DNA of 36,595 nt, taken from IMG/VR virus record IMGVR_UViG_3300032893_000180, positions 1 to 36,595 of that record; one strand, given 5' to 3'. This document shows, piece after piece, positions 1,352 through 36,502 of the stretch (its first letter is position 1; each line of letters begins with the position of its first letter). Below the pieces are notes generated by a model that saw nothing but the letters and a program-made list of their open reading frames with translations, did not search any database and had not been told where the DNA came from. Both the position numbers and the translations under genes were made by a program. The DNA comes from a virus.

Positions 1352-1414
1352 TCAATGGTTAAAAGAAGGCCTCTTAAAGAAATGACCAGTTGTCAGTGCT
1401 TCTTGAATTGTCAT
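1352..1414 (-). pseudogene. 20-codon ORF resembling a truncated DUF2829/Tad2-like N-terminus
   Basis: The ATG at 1414 is the first start downstream of the minus-strand arm of the divergent promoter at 1412-1480. It encodes MTIQEALTTGHFFKRPSFNH and then TGA. The pattern M.I.EAL..G..F.RP.. resembles the N-terminus of DUF2829 proteins, the family that includes the Thoeris inhibitor Tad2, where a conserved tryptophan and a further ~50 residues follow. Here the frame stops and the next gene's ribosome site begins. It is probably a remnant, but could act as a leader peptide. The family link is inferred from a short stretch only. Confidence 0.35.
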
Positions 1415-1480
1415 AGGTCAATTGTGCTCTCAAATTATAAAGCAAATGTGAAGGAAATGTGCTAAAATTGTGGAACAATG
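1412..1480. promoter_or_regulatory. Divergent promoter module, copy 1 (portal / minus cassette)
   Basis: Plus arm: extended -10 TGC-TAAAAT (hexamer 1463-1468) with only 9 nt to the portal ATG at 1478 and no Shine-Dalgarno, so a leaderless or nearly leaderless mRNA is expected. Minus arm: TATAAT (1439-1434) with 19 nt to the ATG at 1414. The box TGTGAAGG lies at 1447-1454, 8 nt before the plus -10. The module is repeated at 5468-5534 with the same order and spacing. Confidence 0.65.
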
Positions 1481-3010
1481 AAAAAAGCCAAAAGCCCACC
1501 CAAAAATAGCCAAAAACAACCGACAAAACGGGAGTTTGTTAAGTCATTGAAAAATGAGAAAAAAGAGAACATCATCAATGGGCTCTATGCGGCGATTTTT
1601 GGAGGCGGTTCTTTTCCTGGCCTCAATTTTGGACTTCCTGGCACCCAACAAGTCAGTCAACTCAATCCACTTTTCGATAATTTAAGATGGTATTTTGCTA
1701 GTAACTGGTTTCAACAGCTTTCCGAAGCCTATTGTGAACTTGGCATGATTCAGACAATTGTCGATGTGCCTGTGGATGATGGGATGAGGGGCGGTGTTGA
1801 AATTTTTTCTAGAAAGCTTTCTCCCGAGCAACTTTTGCAATTGCAAGATGTTGTGGATCGGGAAGATGATTTGGGTAGACTTGCGCAAGCATTAAAATGG
1901 AATCGACTTTTCGGCGGTGCCGGCATTCTCATTTTCACTGAACAAGACCCCTCGACACCCTTAGATTTGTCGACGATTAAAAAAGGCGAACCTCTAGAGT
2001 TCCATGCGGTTGACATGTGGGAACTCTATTATGACATGCAAAACGCCGAAGGCTACGACGAAGCAATCCAAGACGAACGTTTTCAATTCTACACCTATTA
2101 TGGAGAAAAAATTCATAAGAGTCGTGTCATTAGATTGAAAGGCATTGTTGCCCCGGCCTTTTTAAGACCGCGTCTTCGTGGCTGGGGAATGAGTGTGGTT
2201 GAAATTTGTGTGCGTTCTATCAATCAATATATGAAAGGCACCAATCTCATTTATGAATTATTGGACGAAGCAAAAATTGACGTGTACGGCATTAAGAACC
2301 TAACTAACACACTTCTTTCTCAGGGCGGAACTGAGCAAGTTGCTGCCCGAATTCAGATGGCCAATCGGCAGAAGAATTTTCAGCATGCTCTTGTGATGGA
2401 CGCTGAGGATCAATACACACAGAAAAGTCTAACATTTTCAGGCCTTTCTGATGTTATGAAAGAAGTGCGCTATCAATTAGCTGCAGATTTGCGCATGCCA
2501 CTTACAAAATTGTTTGGAATGGGAGCAGTGGGACTCAATGCTTCAAGCGAAGACGACATTGAAGTTTATAATGGCATGGTGGAATCGACTGTCAGACAGA
2601 AAGCAAAAGCTTCACTCATTCGAATGCTCGAAATCAGATGTCAGGAACAATTCGGTTTCATTCCCGACGATCTTTCCATTTCATTTGCTCCAATGAGACT
2701 CATGTCGGCTGAGCAAGAGCAGGCAATTAAAAAACAGAAATTTGAGGCGATTTCTAAGGCATTAGAGCAGGGCGCCATCAGTTTGGAAGAATTTAGGCAA
2801 GCCTGTAATAAGGATGATCTTTTGGGGATTCAGCTTTCAGATCAAGCCCCAAATGCACAAGAAGGGGTGGATTCCCTTAGTAATCAGCCTGGAAACGATG
2901 ATTTAAAACTAGACAAAGAAAGAGAAGACGGCGAAGGCAAAGATGCCTTGGCCTATGAAGCTCCGGCAGTTGAGTTGGATGCTTCTAAAGGAAAAGAGTC
3001 TGAACAATGA
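1478..3010 (+). CDS. Portal protein (DUF1073 / Phage_portal_3 type)
   Basis: The portal forms the dodecameric ring at the capsid vertex through which DNA passes and to which the neck and tail attach. At 510 aa it has the usual size. Sequence features match the DUF1073 (Phage_portal_3) family: an early NWFQQLSEAYCELGMIQTIV segment, then DVPVDDGMRGG (residues ~96-106), the LKWNRLFGGAGILI stretch, and LAADLRMPLTKLFG in the middle. The last ~90 residues are charged and low in complexity. Translation starts at the ATG 9 nt after a -10 hexamer without a ribosome site. It is followed by a small gene and an HNH gene. Confidence 0.9.
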   Translation: MKKAKSPPKNSQKQPTKREFVKSLKNEKKENIINGLYAAIFGGGSFPGLNFGLPGTQQVSQLNPLFDNLRWYFASNWFQQLSEAYCELGMIQTIVDVPVDDGMRGGVEIFSRKLSPEQLLQLQDVVDREDDLGRLAQALKWNRLFGGAGILIFTEQDPSTPLDLSTIKKGEPLEFHAVDMWELYYDMQNAEGYDEAIQDERFQFYTYYGEKIHKSRVIRLKGIVAPAFLRPRLRGWGMSVVEICVRSINQYMKGTNLIYELLDEAKIDVYGIKNLTNTLLSQGGTEQVAARIQMANRQKNFQHALVMDAEDQYTQKSLTFSGLSDVMKEVRYQLAADLRMPLTKLFGMGAVGLNASSEDDIEVYNGMVESTVRQKAKASLIRMLEIRCQEQFGFIPDDLSISFAPMRLMSAEQEQAIKKQKFEAISKALEQGAISLEEFRQACNKDDLLGIQLSDQAPNAQEGVDSLSNQPGNDDLKLDKEREDGEGKDALAYEAPAVELDASKGKESEQ

Positions 3011-3030
3011 ACTGGAAAGGAAGTCAACCA

Positions 3031-3240
3031 ATGAAAATGTCTGAAAAAGCCGAAGAAGGCAAGAAACGCTACGGAGCCAATTCAAAGGTCGACCCCAAAG
3101 TTGAAAATCCGGGGCATGTCGATGAATCAATTTGGGAGCGTGCAAAGAAAAAGGCACAAGAAGAATATGGGGCAGGACACTGGGCTGCAGTTTCCTTTCT
3201 TTATAAACGGCTTGGAGGTCGTTTCCATCATAAACCTTAA
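3031..3240 (+). CDS. Small conserved phage protein ending LGGRFHHKP
   Basis: A 69-aa basic protein (MKMSEKAEEGKKRYG at the start, DESIWERAKKKAQEEYG in the middle). The start at 3031 is chosen because AAAGGAAG lies 7 nt upstream; the ATG at 3007, which overlaps the portal stop, has no ribosome site. Phage proteins with a WERAK...YG..YWAAV...YK.LGG pattern are, from memory, common near portal or terminase genes and are uncharacterised. Its last nine residues are almost identical to the end of the next gene, the HNH endonuclease, although the codons differ. Confidence 0.75.
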   Translation: MKMSEKAEEGKKRYGANSKVDPKVENPGHVDESIWERAKKKAQEEYGAGHWAAVSFLYKRLGGRFHHKP

Positions 3241-3243
3241 CGA

Positions 3244-3759
3244 ATGACTCGTAAATGCACAACCTGCGAACTTGAAAAAGAATTTGCAGAATTTGATAAA
3301 CATAAGAATGGTAAGTTCGGTCTTCGTAGCACGTGTCGACTATGCAAACGTGAAGCTGGAAGAATTTATCGAGAACTAAATAAGAACCAGATTAAAGAAC
3401 GGGGATTTCTGTATCGACAGAGACCTGAAGCTAAAGAAAAATCGAGAGAACGTACTCGACAATGGCAGCGCAGTCATCCGGATGTTGTGTTTCGTTCGCG
3501 ATTGAAGAAATTTGGCATAACTCCAATTCAATATGAAGAATTATTAAGAGCGCAGAATGGGGTTTGTGCTATCTGTAAAACGGTAAAGCAGTCAACCATA
3601 AAAACCAAATTACATGTTGATCACGATCATTTATCAGGCGAAATTCGTGGACTTCTTTGTCACAATTGCAATGTCACCTTAGGACTTATGAAAGACAACC
3701 CCGACCTCCTGCGTGCCGCTGCAGATTATTTGGGCGGGAAATTCCATCACAAGCCTTAA
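3244..3759 (+). CDS. Endonuclease VII-like HNH protein, probable free-standing homing endonuclease
   Basis: A 171-aa nuclease. Residues 1-35 form a zinc-ribbon-like part (CTTCELEKEF ... STCRLC). Residues ~105-160 match recombination endonuclease VII: CAICK, then LHVDHDHLSGEIRGLLCHNC and NVTLGLMKDNPDLL, with the His-Asp-His catalytic core and paired zinc cysteines. T4 endonuclease VII resolves branched DNA, while many small phage relatives are mobile HNH genes. The position, tucked behind the portal operon with 3 nt between stop and start and no ribosome site of its own, fits a mobile insertion. It ends LGGKFHHKP, copying the end of the upstream gene. Confidence 0.85.
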   Translation: MTRKCTTCELEKEFAEFDKHKNGKFGLRSTCRLCKREAGRIYRELNKNQIKERGFLYRQRPEAKEKSRERTRQWQRSHPDVVFRSRLKKFGITPIQYEELLRAQNGVCAICKTVKQSTIKTKLHVDHDHLSGEIRGLLCHNCNVTLGLMKDNPDLLRAAADYLGGKFHHKP

Positions 3760-3776
3760 ACCGGGATTTTTCTTCT

Positions 3777-3804
3777 TTCCCACTAACCACCGACCCCCTG
3801 TTTT
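3777..3804 (+). repeat. Dispersed CCGACCC-type repeat, intergenic copy
   Basis: TTCCCACTAACC then ACCGACCCCCTGTTTT, lying between the HNH gene and the end of the minus-strand cassette. It is set in a pyrimidine-rich stretch, as are the copies at 8897 and 13141. No hairpin forms here, so it is not an ordinary terminator. Confidence 0.6.
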
Positions 3805-3822
3805 TGCTCTCTTTTCTTGTCT

Positions 3823-3951
3823 TTAGAAAGAATCTGGGCGTTCGTCTAATGCATAGTGCTTAATTCGTTCTAGTTGCGAGAATTGCGGCCAATGAAAAGC
3901 CATGTAACGTCCGTCAATCATGAAATAGAAGGCTTCGTGTTTTGATTTCAT
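3823..3951 (-). CDS. 42-aa hypothetical protein
   Basis: A short minus-strand frame with a near-perfect ribosome site (AAGGAGGAAAA just before the ATG at 3951). The protein begins MKSKHEAFYFMIDGRYMAFH and ends DERPDSF. It has no recognisable domain; its aromatic residues and mixed charge look like a small folded protein. The ribosome site overlaps the end of the membrane-protein gene upstream, so it is the last gene of the operon starting at 5470. Confidence 0.65.
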   Translation of the reverse strand: MKSKHEAFYFMIDGRYMAFHWPQFSQLERIKHYALDERPDSF

Positions 3952-3960
3952 TTTTCCTCC

Positions 3961-4308
3961 TTAAAATTTAAATGCAAATGCCGAAAAACCAAATGCCCCA
4001 ATTCCTAAAGCATTTTCTCCCATTGCTCGACCAAAAGAGGAAGGCCAATGAGGGTCGTTGGGAGCGATTTCCGTAAATTTGTAAACTGCTCCAATCATTA
4101 GAGTTGTTACAGCTGAGAAGACAAATGCTTCAGTGGGAGAACAATGAAATGCATTTTTCGCGATTCCATAACTAAACGCAGAGATTGCAAAACTCATTCC
4201 GAAATGAGCAGCAAAATGTGTTGATGCCTCATCAGACGATTCGGCATGCGATACTGTCGCTAGCGCTCCAAGTGCGACGAAAATGAGACCTATTAAAATC
4301 GTTTTCAC
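3961..4308 (-). CDS. Small membrane protein with N-terminal signal
   Basis: A 115-aa protein with a signal-like N-terminus (MKTILIGLIFVALGALATV followed by SHAES, a plausible signal peptidase I site) and two further hydrophobic segments, around HFGMSFAISAFSYGIA (residues 35-50) and FVFSAVTTLMIGAVY (residues 62-76). The rest contains a GENALGIGAFGFSAF stretch near the end. It should sit in or outside the inner membrane. The gene overlaps the methyltransferase by 4 nt (ATGA), so the two are translationally coupled. The family is not recognised; a host-derived accessory function is likely. Confidence 0.7.
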   Translation of the reverse strand: MKTILIGLIFVALGALATVSHAESSDEASTHFAAHFGMSFAISAFSYGIAKNAFHCSPTEAFVFSAVTTLMIGAVYKFTEIAPNDPHWPSSFGRAMGENALGIGAFGFSAFAFKF

Positions 4309-4841
4309 AGTGGTTTCCTAATCATTAAAAGTCCCCGGTTGCATCGTTCATCCGACCTTGATGATTTAGTGAAATGAATTGACAAAAGACCCATTTCTTG
4401 GGCTTTTTGGGGCAACGTAGCAAGACCTGGAAACATCTGCGGAGCATTGGTGTCGTGAAAAAAGGCAAAACCTCCAGGGCTCAAAATGCGAACATGCTCT
4501 GAAAACCAAAGATGACTTCTGAAGTGGTCGGCATCAGAAATGAGAAGATTGATTGAATCAGATGGTTGGGATTTGACAAACTCCTCTTCTCCAGAGACAA
4601 TGATTCGGATGTTCGGATTGATTTTAAGATGATCGGGGCGTTGTCCTTGCCAGTCTGCCCAATTATCAACGGCCGTTAATGTTCCTGTTCCATTAAATTC
4701 AAGTGCCAGTTGCATTGCCTTAGTTAGCCGACCTGATCCAATGCCCAATTCAAGCACGGTTTGAGGCTTAGTTGCTTCGATGAATGAAGCAATTAGGTTG
4801 ATGTGGCAGTCATCCATTGCGATTAAATCATTCCAATTCAT
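4305..4841 (-). CDS. Class I SAM-dependent methyltransferase
   Basis: A 178-aa Rossmann-fold methyltransferase. Motif I is TVLELGIGSGRLTKA (residues ~29-43), the acidic end of strand beta2 is LTAVDNWADWQG, motif IV is LLISDADHFRSH and a later strand is GGFAFFHDTNAP. The order and the DADH/HDTN residues resemble small-molecule or sugar O-methyltransferases (Methyltransf_24-like) rather than DNA methyltransferases, which would carry DPPY or PC motifs. The substrate is unknown. The start has a GGGGAAA site. It lies in the minus-strand cassette between a repeat protein and a membrane protein, with 4-nt overlaps on both sides. Confidence 0.82.
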   Translation of the reverse strand: MNWNDLIAMDDCHINLIASFIEATKPQTVLELGIGSGRLTKAMQLALEFNGTGTLTAVDNWADWQGQRPDHLKINPNIRIIVSGEEEFVKSQPSDSINLLISDADHFRSHLWFSEHVRILSPGGFAFFHDTNAPQMFPGLATLPQKAQEMGLLSIHFTKSSRSDERCNRGLLMIRKPL

Positions 4842-5470
4842 TTTTTCCCCGAATTAATTTGTTTTCTATTAGGAACCAATTTGAGAGCAGCTTTCAATAA
4901 TTTTCTGTACCGTATGAATAGATCTTCTGGAAGTCCCAGATAGCCGGCTTCTTGTTTTGTCACTTTAAGCCATGCAGATCGTTTTTTCAGTTGACACCCA
5001 ATAACAGCATTATCAGGAGTGATGGTTATTGAAAATTTTGTCGCAATTATTATATTGATGATGTGCGAATGATGTTCAATTTTTGCATTCCCGGACACTT
5101 GAGCATTCCCGGACACTCGAGCATCCCCGAACACTCGAGCATCCCAGAACACCCAAGCATTCCCGGACACTTGAGCATTCCCGGACACTTGAGCATTCCC
5201 GAACACTTGAGCATTCTCGGACACCCAAGCATTCCCGGACACTTGAGCATTCCCGGACACTTGAGCATTCCCGAACACTTGAGCATTCCCGAACACTCGA
5301 GCATCCCCGAACACTCGAGCATCCTCGGACACCCAAGAACTCCCAGTTTGGTCTAAATTTGATTCTTTTTCGATCCAACCACCCAATTCACCATCAGATA
5401 GCCGTTCGATTCTAAATAATACTAAATCGCCTAATTTCAGAGTTAAATCCCATCTAAGTTTATATTTCAT
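4838..5470 (-). CDS. Hexapeptide-repeat (beta-helix) protein
   Basis: A 210-aa protein. Residues ~1-45 form an N-terminal cap ending GELGGWIEKESNL. Residues ~46-130 are tandem hexapeptides of the form NAQVSG / DARVFG / NAWVSE, the pattern of left-handed beta-helices. Residues ~130-210 form a distinct C-terminal domain (IATKFSITITPDN onward). Phage and bacterial proteins with a GGWIE.E.NL cap followed by such repeats are known, usually with unknown roles. It is the first gene of the minus-strand cassette, 19 nt downstream of a CATAAT -10. The repeat number is probably variable because the DNA is a tandem array. Confidence 0.8.
   Translation of the reverse strand: MKYKLRWDLTLKLGDLVLFRIERLSDGELGGWIEKESNLDQTGSSWVSEDARVFGDARVFGNAQVFGNAQVSGNAQVSGNAWVSENAQVFGNAQVSGNAQVSGNAWVFWDARVFGDARVSGNAQVSGNAKIEHHSHIINIIIATKFSITITPDNAVIGCQLKKRSAWLKVTKQEAGYLGLPEDLFIRYRKLLKAALKLVPNRKQINSGKK
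5087..5338. repeat. 18-bp tandem repeat array, 14 units
   Basis: Fourteen units of 18 bp read ATTCCCGGACACTTGAGC or close variants on the plus strand. Units 4, 8 and 14 carry the variant ending CCCAAG, which gives a 4-unit (72-bp) higher-order period over units 5-12. Each unit encodes one hexapeptide of the beta-helix on the minus strand. Because the unit is a multiple of three, several other frames stay open across the array, but they encode nothing credible. Confidence 0.95.
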
Positions 5471-5534
5471 AGGTCAATAATGCCCGTCAATTATGTTGGA
5501 AATGTGAAGGAATTGTGCTAAGATGTACACAATG
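5468..5534. promoter_or_regulatory. Divergent promoter module, copy 2 (protease / minus cassette)
   Basis: Plus arm: TGC-TAAGAT (hexamer 5519-5524) with 7 nt to the ATG at 5532 and no ribosome site. Minus arm: CATAAT (5495-5490) with 19 nt to the ATG at 5470, exactly as in copy 1. TGTGAAGG is at 5503-5510, 8 nt before the plus -10. Both copies start with CATAGGTCAAT on the plus strand. Confidence 0.65.
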
Positions 5535-6917
5535 AATCACAAAGAGATTGATGAATTAGTTAAGAATGCTAAGCAGCTTCCTAAGCGCTATTACGGGTTA
5601 CATATTGTCCCCGGAGTGGCCCAATATCCCGGAACTAATGAGAAAGGTGAGCCTAGGCGTCTTCTTGTGACCGAGAACGCAATCAGAGCAATGGAACCCA
5701 CTTTCGAATGTCGCCCTGTGTTTGTTGATCATCAATCAGTGCCAATTGTGGATGCGGAACAGGAAGCTGATGGATGGGTGATTCGATCTTTTTTTAATCA
5801 GGCAGACGGAAAGCATTGGGTTGAATTCATAGTGACTTCAGACGAAGGACAGGAAGCTATTAGAAAAGGCTTTCGTCTTTCCAATGCCTATGAGCCGACG
5901 CAACTTGGACTTGGTGGGGAATGGAACTGCGTGCCTTATGAGCGAGAATTGATTGATGGTAAGTTCAATCATCTGGCTCTAGTGGAACATCCGCGCTATG
6001 ACGAATCTGTAATTTTAACGCCTGAACAATTTTCTGCATATAACGAAAAGCTTTTGGAAGATTTGAAACGGGTTGACAATTCCAAAAAGCCATCTAATCA
6101 GCCCCAAACAGAGGAGAAGTCAAAAGTGGAAAAACTTTTGGGTTTCTTTAAAAAAACCCCGGCCGAGGTTGATCCCGAAATGAGCATCAAGCTTAAATCT
6201 GGGAAAACGGCTACGTTAGATGAGTTGGTTGAATTGGCCAACAAAGCTGACGAAATGGAAAAAAGGGCTCCCGAAGCGAAGAAAGATGAGTCTGAAGAAG
6301 GCGAAGCGAAGGGTCGGCCTAAGGAAATGGGAAAAGAAGAGGAAGCCAAACAAGGACACCGCGAAGATCGAATGGATGCGGCTCCTCAAATGGCCAATCT
6401 TGATCATCATGTTCATGTTAACGGCGCATCGATGTCCATCAGAGAGTTGATGGCGTCTCACGAAAAAATGCGAAATTGCATGAATGCCCTTTCTGAGCAT
6501 CACGCGTCAATGCTGAAACAAGCAGCTGATTTGGATGATGGGCAAGAAAGAGCCGAAAAAGATTTGGATTCCATGGACAAAACGGCACGCAATGCTGAAG
6601 ATGGTGGCGAAAAAGATGCCATGAAAGACATGGAAAAATCAGATCGTACGAAACGGAATGACGATCAGCAACAGGGTCCAGATTTAGATCCGGAAAAAGT
6701 TGCACAATTTGAAAAAGGATTTTCGGGCAATTCGAAAGAAACGCCTGAAATGCTTAGATTTCTTGATGGGATGACCGGGGCTGCAAAAAAACCCGATTAT
6801 TTCACTCAGTTAAAAAATGCTCAGGAAAAGGGGTTGGGCGAACGCCAATTCATTGATCCTGTTAGTCAGGGCCGCAGTGGCGTTGGCTTAGGCAAAATTC
6901 GCTACGGAAGCAAATAG
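5532..6917 (+). CDS. Prohead protease-scaffold fusion (DUF2213 type)
   Basis: This protein should provide the maturation protease and internal scaffold of the prohead. The N-terminal ~165 residues match DUF2213 proteins: RYYGLHIVPGVAQYPGTNE, then CRPVFVDHQ (a possible catalytic histidine), GFRLSNAYEPT and FNHLALVEHPRYDES. The remaining ~290 residues are highly charged and coiled-coil-like, rich in K, E, D and M, as expected for a scaffold. An ATG at 5523 overlaps the -10 element, so the start at 5532 is preferred; it is 7 nt after the -10 and has no ribosome site. Portal and capsid genes flank it in the usual order. Confidence 0.85.
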   Translation: MNHKEIDELVKNAKQLPKRYYGLHIVPGVAQYPGTNEKGEPRRLLVTENAIRAMEPTFECRPVFVDHQSVPIVDAEQEADGWVIRSFFNQADGKHWVEFIVTSDEGQEAIRKGFRLSNAYEPTQLGLGGEWNCVPYERELIDGKFNHLALVEHPRYDESVILTPEQFSAYNEKLLEDLKRVDNSKKPSNQPQTEEKSKVEKLLGFFKKTPAEVDPEMSIKLKSGKTATLDELVELANKADEMEKRAPEAKKDESEEGEAKGRPKEMGKEEEAKQGHREDRMDAAPQMANLDHHVHVNGASMSIRELMASHEKMRNCMNALSEHHASMLKQAADLDDGQERAEKDLDSMDKTARNAEDGGEKDAMKDMEKSDRTKRNDDQQQGPDLDPEKVAQFEKGFSGNSKETPEMLRFLDGMTGAAKKPDYFTQLKNAQEKGLGERQFIDPVSQGRSGVGLGKIRYGSK

Positions 6918-8854: not shown

Positions 8855-8865
8855 CAGTTCTCTAG

Positions 8866-8898
8866 GGAGAGCCCCTAAAAAGGCTCTCCTTTTCTTTT
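8866..8898 (+). terminator. Rho-independent terminator after the capsid gene
   Basis: The stem GGAGAGCC (8866-8873) pairs with GGCTCTCC (8882-8889) around an 8-nt loop and is followed by TTTTCTTTT. It starts 11 nt after the capsid stop and is the clearest intrinsic terminator in the window. Confidence 0.88.
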
Positions 8899-8965: not shown

Positions 8966-8996
8966 GCACAATTCCTTCACAATTGGCTGCTAAACT
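8966..8996 (+). promoter_or_regulatory. Promoter with inverted TGTGAAGG box, before GT9 gene
   Basis: Extended -10 TGC-TAAACT (hexamer 8991-8996). GCACAATTCCTTCACA at 8966-8981 is the exact reverse complement of 16 bases of the promoter at 5503-5518, so the box is present but flipped, 9 nt before the -10. A ribosome site AGGAGG follows at 9009-9014, so this transcript has a normal leader of about 18 nt. Confidence 0.55.
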
Positions 8997-9020: not shown

Positions 9021-10301
9021 GTGCCAATCATTCAAAAGCAAAACGCAATGTTTCAGGCTCGATTTGTCACTCAAGTTGAGGGCGGATTTCTTTTGCCGAA
9101 AGGGTCGTTTAAAGAGGATGAGGATGGGAATGCGGTATTTCCTGGCCCAAATGGTCAAGGAGCAACGATCATTAAAGCAGGGCACTTTGGCATCACCGAG
9201 GACGGTTCTCTTCGTATTGCGGAGAAATTTGTAAACACAGCAACTCCCGGCATCATTCTAGTCTCCGGCGAAATTCTATTAATCGACCCTAATGCATGCC
9301 TCATGGTGCCCAATCGTCTAATTCCTTCCTGCCGCACGGTGATTGCTCGAGAACGAGGAGCTGATCGTAATTTATTAATTAAATGTCATGGTGGCGTTGG
9401 GGATGTTGTGTGCGCTGAACCAGCGGTCAGATTTGCCTTAAATCGTTTCCCCGAAGAAAAAATCTCACTTTGCACCGACTATCCCGAATTTTTTCAACAC
9501 CTTAAGTTTGCAGAAATTTTTCCTGCCTCTGGCGAAAATCAGCCTAAATACCGTAAATTCTTAGTTTTTCAAAATTTTTCTCAAGGGGACGAACTTGCTT
9601 GGGAATTTGTTGCTCATCCGTTAATGCATGCGGTTGATTATGCGTCGTTAAACATGTGGCGACTCATTCTGCCCAATTCTTTAAAGCGCGTGATTTTGCA
9701 GCCGACAGAGAAACAAATCTCTAGAATGATTGGGCATTTTCCTCTTGGATTTTTCGAACAACCGATGGTTGTAATTCATCCAGGAAAAACTTGGGACTCA
9801 CGAACATTTCCTAAAAAGTGGTGGGACACAATCATTTCGGGGCTTAAAGATGCCGGCATCATGCCTGTCATAATTGGAGGCAATGTTGACAAACAGAAAG
9901 ACGGGAGTTATAGGGCCGGGACAGTGGATGTTGAGACGGATGGTTGCATTGATTTGCGTTATAAATTAGACTGGGGGGAGACGGTTGCATTATTGCAAGC
10001 AACCTCAGTTTTGTTAACGAATGACTCGAGTCCTCTTCACATTGCTGCATCAGGAGATGCTTTCATAGGATTTGTATCAACAGTGAAGCATGCAGATCAT
10101 TTGCTCCATCATCGAAGAGGTGGGCTTGGTTGGCGCATGAAAGACTTCGCGAAGGACACTTTGTTTAACCAACTTAATTTCTGTCCCAATCAGGAAAAGG
10201 AAATTCACGTGGACAAAGTGCATGTTCTCGATCTTTTAAAAATGCTACCTGAGCCCACCGAACTTGTGGATTGGACTCTTTCCAAATTAAAAGGAGAATG
10301 A
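9021..10301 (+). CDS. Glycosyltransferase family 9-like protein
   Basis: A 426-aa protein. Residues ~1-110 form a separate N-terminal part without a recognised fold. From ~115 on it follows the GT-B fold of family 9 (heptosyltransferase-like): LLIKCHGGVGDVVCAEPAV at the first Rossmann strand, VVIHPGKTWDSRTFPKKWW at the start of the second half, PVIIGG, and the nucleotide-sugar site LLTNDSSPLHIAAS. Bacterial members add heptose to lipopolysaccharide core. The GTG start at 9021 has a strong AGGAGG site and its own promoter. Being inside the virion operon, it may glycosylate virion proteins or host surface sugars; that is inference. Confidence 0.85.
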   Translation: MPIIQKQNAMFQARFVTQVEGGFLLPKGSFKEDEDGNAVFPGPNGQGATIIKAGHFGITEDGSLRIAEKFVNTATPGIILVSGEILLIDPNACLMVPNRLIPSCRTVIARERGADRNLLIKCHGGVGDVVCAEPAVRFALNRFPEEKISLCTDYPEFFQHLKFAEIFPASGENQPKYRKFLVFQNFSQGDELAWEFVAHPLMHAVDYASLNMWRLILPNSLKRVILQPTEKQISRMIGHFPLGFFEQPMVVIHPGKTWDSRTFPKKWWDTIISGLKDAGIMPVIIGGNVDKQKDGSYRAGTVDVETDGCIDLRYKLDWGETVALLQATSVLLTNDSSPLHIAASGDAFIGFVSTVKHADHLLHHRRGGLGWRMKDFAKDTLFNQLNFCPNQEKEIHVDKVHVLDLLKMLPEPTELVDWTLSKLKGE

Positions 10302-10756: not shown

Positions 10757-10774
10757 TGGTATAATTAATCTATG
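10757..10774 (+). promoter_or_regulatory. Leaderless promoter of the GIY-YIG gene
   Basis: Extended -10 TG-G-TATAAT (hexamer 10760-10765) with 6 nt to the ATG at 10772 and no ribosome site. The mobile gene would thus be transcribed on its own, starting at or next to its first codon. Confidence 0.6.
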
Positions 10775-11371
10775 AATTGTGCCGGTTACATTTATAAAAT
10801 CACCAATTTGAAAAGCGGCAAAATGTATATCGGACAAACTAGCCAAACAATTGAGGAACGATGGGCAGTTCATCTTGCATGGGCTAAGAAAAGGCGCAGT
10901 TATTTAGCTAACGCAATGATTAAATGTGGAATTAGTAATTTTGTAATAGAACCAGTTGTTTCCGTGATGAACAAGGAAGCCCTAGACGAATTAGAAAAAG
11001 AATTAATTCTTTCGTTTGGAACTATTGCACCAAAAGGTTATAATATATTCTTGGGCGGATCAAAAGGAAAAATCAGTTCCTCGTTTGGACGTAGACGAAA
11101 TGCCGCTAGACAAACTGGTCGAACACATTCAGAGGAAACAAAGCGTAAAATGTCATTAGCTGCAAAAGGAAAAAAGAAGTCTAGATCTCACCACGCAAAA
11201 TTACGAAAAGCAGTTGTTTGCTTAGAAACTGGCATTGTATATGATGGACTTTCTGATGCGGCAAAAGCAATTGAGTGTCGTCCCAGTGATATTTGGAATA
11301 ATATAACTGGTCGTCAGAACCAAGTGTATGGGTTTAGCTTTATTTATGAGAAAGACATAGTATGTATCTAG
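10772..11371 (+). CDS. GIY-YIG homing endonuclease with NUMOD domains
   Basis: A 199-aa free-standing homing endonuclease. Residues ~5-90 form the GIY-YIG nuclease domain: GYIYKITN, KMYIGQTSQTIEERWAVH (catalytic Arg in ERW), the late EKELI glutamate and YNIFLGG. Residues ~115-135 are a NUMOD3-type repeat (GRTHSEETKRKMSLAAKGKK). Residues ~146-195 match the NUMOD1/IENR1 DNA-binding type (YDGLSDAAKAIECRPSDIW and then YGFSFIY). It has its own leaderless promoter, and its last 10 nt overlap the DUF4054 gene, whose ribosome site lies inside it. This fits a mobile element that integrated upstream of that gene. Confidence 0.92.
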   Translation: MNCAGYIYKITNLKSGKMYIGQTSQTIEERWAVHLAWAKKRRSYLANAMIKCGISNFVIEPVVSVMNKEALDELEKELILSFGTIAPKGYNIFLGGSKGKISSSFGRRRNAARQTGRTHSEETKRKMSLAAKGKKKSRSHHAKLRKAVVCLETGIVYDGLSDAAKAIECRPSDIWNNITGRQNQVYGFSFIYEKDIVCI

Positions 11372-20666: not shown

Positions 20667-21214
20667 TGAGTAAATCAATTCTAGGGGACGGAAAGCTCGA
20701 AATTCTGCGGCAGGCAGTGTTGGAAACGAAAATGTTACCTGGAGACATGGCCGAATTAGGCGTCTATCAAGGTGGCACTGCCAAAATGATGCTTGAAAAT
20801 GCCTCAGGAAAAACAATACATCTTTTTGACACATTTGAGGGCATGCCTTTTCAAGGATCCGAAGATGTTCATAAAAAAGGTGAGTTTGCTGACTGTATCG
20901 ACCCAAATGATCTTCTAGAAGAGCTTAAAGACTATAAAGTCGTGATTTATAAAGGGATTTTTCCTGACGATCGATTTCCATTTCATGCTCGATTTTCGTG
21001 TGTTCATTTAGATGCTGACCAATTCCAATCAACGTTAGATGGACTAAAACATTTCGGACATCGAATGGTCGTTGGTGGACTAATGGTTTGTGATGATTGG
21101 GAATGGAGAAACTGTCCAGGCGTTAAAGAAGTCATTCTTCAATGGCTTCCCACCAATCCCAATTTCAGCTATAATGTTATTGGGCATCAAGCGTTAATTC
21201 GGAGGAATGAATAA
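20666..21214 (+). CDS. TylF/MycF-type O-methyltransferase
   Basis: A 182-aa protein that matches the TylF (macrocin O-methyltransferase) family, which methylates sugar hydroxyls with SAM and a metal ion. Key motifs: GDMAELGVYQGGTAKMMLEN (residues ~27-46), KTIHLFDTFEGMP (SAM-binding acidic residue), FSCVHLDADQFQSTLDGLKH and GGLMVCDDWEWRNCPGVK, whose aspartates fit the metal site. It is a little shorter than bacterial members. The start ATG overlaps the hub stop. Lying inside the baseplate operon near a GT8-like gene, it probably methylates a glycan linked to the virion or host surface; substrate unknown. Confidence 0.85.
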   Translation: MSKSILGDGKLEILRQAVLETKMLPGDMAELGVYQGGTAKMMLENASGKTIHLFDTFEGMPFQGSEDVHKKGEFADCIDPNDLLEELKDYKVVIYKGIFPDDRFPFHARFSCVHLDADQFQSTLDGLKHFGHRMVVGGLMVCDDWEWRNCPGVKEVILQWLPTNPNFSYNVIGHQALIRRNE

Positions 21215-29517: not shown

Positions 29518-29624
29518 AAGAATTAGATAATGCAAACTCGTTGCCAACTCATTTAGGCACAAACAATTGTGTTTTTCCGCCAATCTTTTAGACAAGCACA
29601 AATGCTATGAATGCTGTTGTTAAA

Positions 29625-29650
29625 CAAATGCCGCGACTTAGCGGCATTTG
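29625..29650. terminator. Perfect 10-bp hairpin, possible bidirectional terminator
   Basis: CAAATGCCGC (29625-29634) pairs with GCGGCATTTG (29641-29650) around GACTTA. TCAATCTTTT follows on the plus strand and TTTAAC on the minus side, so neither tail is ideal. The site lies upstream of the minus-strand genes, and could be a terminator or a protein-binding site. Confidence 0.5.
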
Positions 29651-29696
29651 TCAATCTTTTGCATATTAAGAGTTAAACACATCCTAAAACAGTTAT

Positions 29697-29726
29697 TCTG
29701 TCCACGTCCTCCAAGACGTGGACAGA
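29697..29726. other. Perfect 12-bp hairpin
   Basis: TCTGTCCACGTC (29697-29708) pairs with GACGTGGACAGA (29715-29726) around a 6-nt loop. No T-tract follows on either strand, so a terminator is unlikely. It may be part of an origin, an operator or a structured RNA. Confidence 0.6.
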
Positions 29727-29804
29727 GCTGGCCCCGCGCTAGCGTTACACTAATCTCTACAAAAATCCACAACAAAATCAATCACTTGCGCGTCAACCAA
29801 AAGC

Positions 29805-29916
29805 CTTGTTGCAAAAAGCGTGCCAACTTTGTTATGCAACAAGTGTGCCAAATTGCCCTGCAGGCGCTCGAAATCATTGGCTTTATTAATGCTAATGCAA
29901 AAAGCATGCCAACTTT
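29805..29916. repeat. Iteron-like direct repeats with inverted repeat
   Basis: GCAAAAAGCGTGCCAACTTT (29811-29830) recurs with one change at 29897-29916 (GCATGCC). A shorter GTGCCAA copy lies at about 29845. CTTGTTGCA (29805-29813) is the inverse of TGCAACAAG (29835-29843). Three related 7-mers and two long repeats within 110 bp indicate binding sites for one protein. Confidence 0.6.
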
Positions 29917-30147
29917 CCGGCACGGAACTTGCATGGGCAAAAACCGAAACGGGTCCCATCTGCCCGGGGGGTGAGCTTTAGCACTGGTCCACCCATTACA
30001 AAAAATTTTAAAAAAGTCAAATTTTAATCTCTAATAAAATCAATAAGTTGCAAATTCCCCATGTGCCCTGTTTTGTTCACAAATTCGCATACATTTTGTG
30101 ATACCGCATGGCACTAATTTTGCCTTGTTTCGTAGGGGTCGTAAGAT

Positions 30148-30165
30148 TGTTATAATCATTTAATG
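30148..30165 (+). promoter_or_regulatory. Leaderless promoter of the nucleotide-metabolism operon
   Basis: Extended -10 TG-T-TATAAT (hexamer 30151-30156), 6 nt before the ATG at 30163 and no ribosome site. An imperfect inverted repeat TTCACAAA / TTTTGTGAT (about 30077-30103) upstream could be an operator. Confidence 0.62.
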
Positions 30166-34824: not shown

Positions 34825-34831
34825 CATTTTT

Positions 34832-34854
34832 CCTTCACAATTAGGTGCTAATCT
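34832..34854 (+). promoter_or_regulatory. Promoter with inverted TGTGAAGG box, before the collagen-like gene
   Basis: CCTTCACA (34832-34839) lies 9 nt before TGC-TAATCT (hexamer 34849-34854), exactly as at 8974-8996. The ribosome site GGGAGG follows near 34864, so the transcript has a leader of roughly 15 nt. Confidence 0.55.
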
Positions 34855-34875: not shown

Positions 34876-35559
34876 ATGAATCGTCATTGGAAACGTAAAT
34901 TAGAGTCTACAAAGGTTAAAAATCAAATTGCTGCTCGTAGGGCATTAATCCAAACTCGACAACGACTCATGCTCACGTTCTTTCTTGGAGTTTTGGGCTA
35001 TGTTCTTTTTGCCTTTTTCATAATCAGTTGTTTGATTGGTTGTGCAAAAATTACACCAATTCCTCAGGCTCAGAATTGCTCAGTCGTGCAAGATGACAAT
35101 GGGGCTACAATCACATGTCCTAATGGGTCGACGGCTGTTGTTGCTAATGGGGCGATTGGACCACAAGGAGACCAAGGACCGCAAGGAGTTGCTGGACCAC
35201 AAGGGGAGCAAGGGCCTCAGGGAGCAACTGGTGCCACAGGAGCGACAGGGGCTCAGGGGGCTGTTGGTGCTACGGGTGCCACTGGAGCAACCGGTGCCAC
35301 AGGTGCTAAGGGCGAAAAGGGCAGCCCAGGAACGCCAGGAACTGTCATAACGGCTATTCAGTTCTGTTCCTCCGACTTCATTCCGACCTATCCGACCACT
35401 TTCCCTGAATTCGGTCTCTGCATTGGAGGTCAGCTTTATGGAGTTTATTCCGCAAATGGAGGTTTTTTAACCCTTTTGCCTCAGGGAACTTACAGTTCGG
35501 ATGGTGTTAATGCCTCATGCAATTTCACCATTGGCGCAAATTGCACAATCACTCGCTAG
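34876..35559 (+). CDS. Collagen-like lipoprotein
   Basis: A 227-aa protein. Residues ~1-33 are basic ([17 protein letters not shown] at the start), residues ~34-52 hydrophobic, and the lipobox LIGC (cysteine ~56) is followed by [13 protein letters not shown]. Residues ~92-158 are G-X-Y repeats ([16 protein letters not shown], then [14 protein letters not shown]). The last ~70 residues form a Cys-containing domain ending [15 protein letters not shown]. It should be a trimeric lipoprotein at the cell surface of the infected host. Its separate promoter marks it as a probable accessory gene. A role in host-surface change is inference. Confidence 0.82.
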
Positions 35560-35980: not shown

Positions 35981-36155
35981 ATTGGTTGGCGCAATCCGCG
36001 CTGTTTATGATCAGACCAAAAAATCACTAGGAGTTCCTAATCAGATTATAATGGACGCAGATGATTTCAGCTTGATCGCAAAGCATCATGGAATGGCGGA
36101 TTCTTGGATTGAATCCTACATTGAGAGACACACAATTAAACCGGAAAAAGAATGA
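35955..36155 (+). CDS. 66-aa hypothetical protein
   Basis: MKKKTRKNELVGAIRAVYDQ, then SLGVPNQIIMDADDFSLIAK and HHGMADSWIESYIERHT, a charged and probably helical protein. The start overlaps the preceding gene by 26 nt and uses its GAAGAA-rich end as a weak ribosome site. It overlaps the XRE gene by 4 nt. Function unknown. Confidence 0.62.
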   Translation: MKKKTRKNELVGAIRAVYDQTKKSLGVPNQIIMDADDFSLIAKHHGMADSWIESYIERHTIKPEKE

Positions 36156-36502
36156 GGCGGACTATTAAACGTGCGACAATTACAATGGCAGTGGATGGTG
36201 TTATTGAATACTTTACAGTGCCGAGAAATATCTTGGTGCAGATTCGGCAGAAGCACCTGGCTCCATACGCCTTAACTAGCTTCATTAAAGGTGACCGGCC
36301 TGGCGAACGGATTCGACGCCTACGTCAAGAGCGGAATTGGAATCAGGCTATGTTGGGGAAAAAACTTAAGGTTGGGCAAAGTGCCATTACGGCTTTGGAA
36401 ACGGGTCCGAAAGAAGTGAGCGCAAAAATGGCCTTGAAGCTTGGGGATTTATTTCAGATAAACCCAAGGATTTTTTTAGGGTCTAATAAGAAAAAGAAAT
36501 GA
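36152..36502 (+). CDS. XRE-family helix-turn-helix protein
   Basis: A 116-aa protein. Residues ~52-110 are an XRE/Cro-CI domain: GERIRRLRQERNWNQAMLGK, then KLKVGQSAITALETGPKEVS and LGDLFQINPRIF, with all five helices. Residues 1-50 (TITMAVDGVIEYFTVPRNIL) form a short extra part that may dimerise or bind a ligand. It could be a phage regulator or an antitoxin, but no toxin-like gene is visible next to it. It lies at the end of the accessory operon and is a candidate to bind the repeated DNA boxes described here. Confidence 0.8.
   Translation: MRRTIKRATITMAVDGVIEYFTVPRNILVQIRQKHLAPYALTSFIKGDRPGERIRRLRQERNWNQAMLGKKLKVGQSAITALETGPKEVSAKMALKLGDLFQINPRIFLGSNKKKK

Follow-up and report, generated by a model that had tools for sequence, protein, structure and literature searches.

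A duplicated divergent promoter-like region between accessory cassettes and head genes of a phage carries a box that recurs in bacterial genomes

A 58-bp intergenic region is present twice in the window, the term used here for the whole 36,595-nt stretch analysed (IMG/VR record IMGVR_UViG_3300032893_000180). Each copy stands between a minus-strand accessory cassette and a plus-strand virion gene. On balance we favour the reading that this region is a host-style regulated promoter for the cargo, with a second promoter, that of the virion gene, on its back. Judged by position, geometry and bacterial counterparts, the minus arms probably act as promoters of host type that turn the cargo on.

The duplicated regions and their flanking genes

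The two copies and the genes around them were as follows.

1411–1468, no strand: duplicated divergent promoter-like region, copy 1, between cassette 1 and portal
5467–5524, no strand: duplicated divergent promoter-like region, copy 2, between cassette 2 and protease
1478–3010, plus: portal protein (phrog_146, PF06381)
5532–6917, plus: head maturation protease (phrog_2229, weak DUF2213)
452–1414, minus: cassette 1, with a 20-codon ORF (1414–1352), a DUF7296 gene (1331–1002) and an unknown gene (874–452)
3823–5470, minus: cassette 2, with the four genes that follow
5470–4838, minus: YdcK-type beta-solenoid
4841–4305, minus: Methyltransf_24
4308–3961, minus: membrane-protein-like ORF
from 3952, minus: short ORF

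In an ungapped alignment the two regions were identical at 46 of 58 positions, far above chance, and self-BLAST of the window recovered the pair (E = 3e-7) and no other intergenic one like it. The minus half (1411–1443) alone matched at 23 of 33 positions, a score reached by about 3e-6 of random pairs, and the box with the plus arm matched at 23 of 25. Because the minus half matches separately, the similarity amounts to more than two promoters of the same class in the same orientation. TCATAGGTCAAT was identical in both sites; the virion-facing half pattern TGTGAAGGAANTGTGCTAARAT was found at two places in the window, both of them duplicated sites, and in none of 100 shuffles. The minus −10 hexamers, TATAAT at 1439–1434 (site 1) and CATAAT at 5495–5490 (site 2), each lay 19 nt from the minus ATG. 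The shared order of elements reported in the initial annotation, this distance included, was thus confirmed over both halves. Identity ended just inside the minus ORFs and short of the plus ATG.

It also held true that each copy separates a minus-strand cassette from a plus-strand virion gene (portal at site 1, head maturation protease at site 2) and that the cassettes differ in their recognised gene families. The minus ATG at site 1 opens merely the 20-codon ORF, and the first recognisable gene, of the DUF7296 family, begins at 1331 with its own Shine-Dalgarno sequence. The beta-solenoid of cassette 2 is encoded by 18-base tandem repeats (5049–5386), similar to those of two plus-strand copies (locus L067). 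Endonuclease genes were observed near the duplicated sites (3244–3759 and 10772–11371).

The virion-facing arms

1463–1468, plus: portal arm, extended −10 (TGC)TAAAAT, 9 nt from the ATG at 1478, with its TG inside box w1 or on its border
5519–5524, plus: protease arm, extended −10 (TGC)TAAGAT, 7 nt from the ATG at 5532

A TAnnnT hexamer directly behind the box toward virion genes occurred only at sites 1 and 2 (C-TAAAAT, C-TAAGAT); since it abuts the box there, the TG of the box itself would serve for the extended −10. Portal and protease starts had no Shine-Dalgarno sequence and a −10 lying 7–9 nt upstream of the ATG; the mRNAs of both genes in the window may be leaderless or nearly so. Leaderless-type −10s were modestly enriched in the window (10 observed vs 5.1 expected). 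A perfect TATAAT stood 6–7 nt ahead of a start codon at window positions 10772, 24043 and 30163 and, in the nearest relative (G001, described below), at 21125; its place next to starts in both phages suggests leaderless mRNAs. The protease start is likely 5532 rather than 5523.

The core box and its copies

At the core of the region lies CAYAATT-CCTT-CAYAATT, an 18-bp direct repeat with a period of 11 bp, followed six bases downstream by a TAnnnT hexamer. The sequence TTCCTTCACAWTT was exact at four places in the window (0.014 expected), of which 8972 and 34830 lie outside the duplication. The duplicate pair described earlier is real, but its core is not limited to those two sites. Shuffled sequence essentially never reached the box score. 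The four copies, with the genes that follow the latter two, were:

1444–1461, minus: box w1, CACATTT-CCTT-CACATTT, with TAATTT (1437–1432) at N6 or TATAAT (1439–1434) at N4
5500–5517, minus: box w2, CACAATT-CCTT-CACATTT, with CATAAT (5495–5490) at N4
8967–8984, plus: box w3, CACAATT-CCTT-CACAATT, then GGCTGC TAAACT, after the MCP terminator (8864–8891) and before the GT9 gene
9021–10301, plus: glycosyltransferase family 9 (GT9), cargo behind MCP, downstream of box w3
34825–34842, plus: box w4, CATTTTT-CCTT-CACAATT, then AGGTGC TAATCT, before the collagen-like tail-fibre gene
34876–35559, plus: collagen-like tail-fibre protein, downstream of box w4

Boxes w3 and w4 are one-way, each preceding a plus-strand gene, and box w1 has a weaker third repeat unit that overlaps the −10. 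All seven placed boxes (four in the window, three in G001) face the start of a non-core gene or operon. In six of these seven, from two phages, xAxxxT stood exactly 6 nt past the box, and any other offset was found in at most three; at sites 1 and 2 the better hexamer sits at N4, not N6. TTCACA as a −35 at 17 nt was considered and rejected, as sites 1, 2 and 4 had no fitting −10.

The box in related phages

Relatives were fetched by portal (31) and by MCP (25). In most of them terL and portal almost touch, the portal gene has a Shine-Dalgarno sequence, and the block from portal to MCP lies entirely on the plus strand with a Mu-F-like minor head gene ahead of the protease. That gene was present in 13 of 15 records and absent exactly in the window (3010–5532) and in G001 (L142 6552–9090), and only these two had minus-strand cassettes among the head genes. 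An apparent minus-strand gene in another relative (L011, 6767–7246) was discarded because the plus strand at that position codes for an HTH protein that relatives also have.

The nearest relative, G001 (contig 3300032893_000226; portal 58–62% and MCP 61% identical), was the single close relative in the comparison, and both its record and that of the window are incomplete. It was found via the solenoid protein, whose gene there lies in plus orientation ahead of the terminase genes. The check proposed in the initial annotation, a search for the module with other cargo in a relative, was positive for one slot, between portal and protease of G001, where a minus-strand cassette of four genes (short ORF, PfkB kinase, SIS/GmhA-like isomerase, adenylyltransferase) makes up an ADP-heptose-like pathway. 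These genes are unrelated to the window cargo, yet they are headed by the same box, the first being preceded by CATAATTCCTTCACAATT-GGCTGA-GACTAT-GTATTC-ATG. The MCP terminator is followed, as in the window, by a second box that precedes glycosyltransferase cargo. A third stands ahead of a minus-strand gene in the early region, and a fourth, weaker match falls within the protease gene. Genes of an ADP-heptose-like pathway in the head operon of G001, together with a GT9 gene of the heptosyltransferase family downstream of MCP in each phage, were noted (L142 6673–8829 and 13797–14828; window 9021–10301).

The cassette box of G001 is one-way, and the protease has a −10 of its own, TGGTATAAT-N7-GTG, about 240 nt off. 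Portal and protease each have a −10 6–7 nt before the start and separate from the box; between terL and portal the portal promoter is present and cargo and box are both absent. Since the virion −10s of G001 are separate from the box, virion promoters appear independent of cargo, and the two-way fusion appears peculiar to the window contig. G001 has box and cargo in the portal/protease slot and neither in the terL/portal slot, so the site 1 copy is probably derived; it may have been copied from site 2.

Elsewhere among the relatives, terL/portal cargo lies on the plus strand without the box. The box occurred in 2 of 17 related records, the window (G000) and G001, the other fifteen being without it, and the reversed pattern had no match across the 17. 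Exact and gapped patterns of the two-way unit gave no true second case in IMG/VR, the few matches being intragenic or in unrelated records, and known phages gave only repeat or chance matches. The duplicated intergenic elements of two other loci (L012 and L065) were dissimilar to the box and not divergent.

The box in bacterial genomes

In GTDB genomes, CAYAATTCCTTCAYAATT-N6-TA matched 46 sites, 44 of them intergenic, in Bdellovibrionota, Nitrospirota, Bacillota, Desulfobacterota and others. Position 6 of the hexamer was T in 42 of the 46, although the pattern does not demand it. Five genomes (four named Bdellovibrionales, Bdellovibrionaceae or Bdellovibrio, and one named only Deltaproteobacteria that shares orthologous targets) held 4–10 boxes each vs 0–1 for the reversed control, with about 7–10 in the larger Bdellovibrionota genomes. 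Four orthologous gene groups in Bdellovibrionota, each in 3–5 of the five genomes, were box-headed: a secreted protein (~165 aa), a Cys/His-rich protein (~125 aa), a beta-helix protein (~780 aa) and a GNAT protein (282 aa). The N6 offset was dominant in this set of genomes, with 22 of 37 intergenic sites. Among the genes that follow the box in other phyla were those for HtrA-type proteases, a metal ATPase, a metal-responsive repressor, DUF2680, LTXXQ and SHOCT proteins and a sensor kinase, genes typical of envelope or metal stress systems. The two-way form was seen at one of 54 bacterial sites, and that one was intragenic.

Across phyla, bacterial loci (L144–L189, L220–L257) displayed a promoter-like class, TTCAYA-N5-TTCAYA-ATT-N6-TAnnnT, before HtrA, metal and envelope genes. 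This class is apparently unnamed so far: the box sequence was not found in print in the literature searched, which names no regulator for the bacterial sites. 'Pho box' was rejected as a name, because the downstream genes shown include HtrA, metal and envelope families and none of the pst/pho families. An assignment of Bdellovibrionota as the host was not adopted; a −10 flavour is shared (TAAACT, TAAGAT, TATTGT), but tetranucleotide usage gives no support, and no relative of the portal was found in GTDB genomes.

Proposed mechanism and alternatives

As the box stands before bacterial genes and before phage cargo, the virus appears to use a borrowed host-style promoter. In the proposed mechanism, the minus arm would be a site of the OmpR/PhoB type in which a pair of 7-bp repeats with an 11-bp period takes the place of a −35 and the −10 follows at N6, or at N4 with a better hexamer at the two duplicated copies. 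A response regulator, most likely the host's, would bind the box and start cargo transcription. The plus arm would be an extended −10 that borrows its TG from the opposite end of the box and yields a leaderless portal or protease mRNA. Both arms presumably fire; a regulator bound to the box should cover the TG of the virion arm, so that the arms would be used on an either/or basis and binding would favour cargo over virion. The fullest version of this scheme is a tentative one that we hold to be possible and no stronger: a copied host stress-response promoter back to back with two essential virion promoters, one host regulator toggling cargo against virion at each junction, and a box belonging to an unnamed, cross-phylum class of response-regulator sites.

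Alternatively, the box could be the target of a phage-encoded activator and mark a normal middle or late class of promoter, with the bacterial sites belonging to a related regulator family. That each phage genome has several box copies, and that only one small clade has them, would suit such an activator, and an HTH_3 protein is encoded near the end of the window (36152–36499). HTH_3 proteins usually bind inverted repeats, however, and the box is a direct repeat. OmpR-type DNA-binding domains, 3–5 of which were found in each of the five bacterial genomes, were absent from the window and G001 records; as both are incomplete, a phage regulator could be out of view. The occurrence of these 18 bp, with an identical spacing to the −10, ahead of bacterial genes in bacterial genomes also argues against a phage activator, which we consider rather unlikely.

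The initial annotation had taken the duplicated two-way promoter for a ready-made port for inserting cargo into the virion operon. Part of this idea survived: the box travels with cargo, the entire 58-bp unit is duplicated with its minus start, and other cargo lies behind the same box in the same slot of G001. The two-way form, however, is unique to the window contig. The G001 box is one-way, as are two of the four window copies (8967 and 34825), the terL/portal cargo of relatives is on the plus strand and boxless, and the G001 portal has its own promoter with no cargo there. A dedicated port is thus doubtful. Still less credible, and in our view highly improbable, is that the repeat mainly reflects the copying of a cassette boundary by recombination or gene conversion, with only the minus promoter working and the virion genes read through from upstream: the limits of identity (just inside the minus ORFs, before the plus ATG), the 20-codon stub that is the first minus ORF of site 1 and the nearby endonuclease genes (3244–3759, 10772–11371) would fit, but the plus −10 is kept (CTAAAAT / CTAAGAT) without a Shine-Dalgarno sequence, G001 retains −10s right before portal and protease, and the other ends of the cassettes have no similarity except the GGGTCGG repeat.

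Comparison with known systems

Morons of tailed phages, such as the 'ant moron' of the P22 group, are independently expressed gene groups inside the virion operon (PMC2629481). Like them, the window cargo is inserted in the virion operon, variable between relatives and absent in others, in an operon that is otherwise continuous (terL and portal tens of bases apart in most relatives). The cassettes have putative promoters of their own, with conserved box and −10 geometry; terminator-like sites, often present in morons though no part of the definition in PMC2629481, were not found in 300–1000 and 3760–3960. Unlike those of morons, the window cargo promoters share one host-type box at several genome places, two of which have it joined to the promoter of a virion gene.

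Some cyanophage genes carry a host Pho box and are under PhoBR control (PMC10976474), and the window cargo would resemble them as phage accessory genes behind a host-type response-regulator box of direct repeats. It differs in box sequence and in lying within the head operon. The 7-4-7 repeat shares the layout of OmpR/PhoB-family promoters, in which a pair of short direct repeats, 11 bp apart, substitutes for the −35 close to the −10 (Pho box, PMC4971064; CiaR box, TTTAAG-N5-TTTAAG with a −10 about 10 nt on, PMC3091779), but its repeat sequence, unlike that of the Pho and CiaR boxes, is TTCAYA-like. The start-associated sequences of cluster K mycobacteriophages lie 3–7 bp from start codons, have a Shine-Dalgarno core and are thought to be translational (PMC3203893). 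They too are short, asymmetric, repeated before gene starts and mostly in one orientation within one phage group; the window box, in contrast, lies upstream of a −10-like hexamer and has no Shine-Dalgarno sequence. With −10-like hexamers on both sides, the duplicated regions are candidate bidirectional promoters. What sets the window apart from known morons and Pho-box cargo is the box itself, its reuse for several cargo insertions in one genome and its fusion to two virion promoters.

If the favoured reading of a host-style cargo promoter backed by a virion promoter is right, cargo genes inside a phage head operon would be under a host two-component system, linking extra functions of the phage (here glycan- and surface-related enzymes) to host state. 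It would also offer one way to place a cassette within an essential operon without silencing the next gene. The box provides a searchable promoter signature that may link uncultured phages with hosts; the promoter class to which it points is found in several phyla and seems not to have been described before.

Other repeats in the window

GGGTCGG occurred at 29 places in the window vs 1.7 expected (e.g., 613, 3790, 8908, 13152, 18076, 26255 and 33312), often as part of a 25–30 bp repeat, AAAACAGGGTCGGTGATTGGGAAG, on either strand and both in and between genes. G001, the other relatives and the bacterial loci showed no enrichment of GGGTCGG. A noncoding stretch of about 500 bp (29620–30160) contains three near-identical 21-bp repeats, TGCAAAAAGCGTGCCAACTTT, at 29810–29916.
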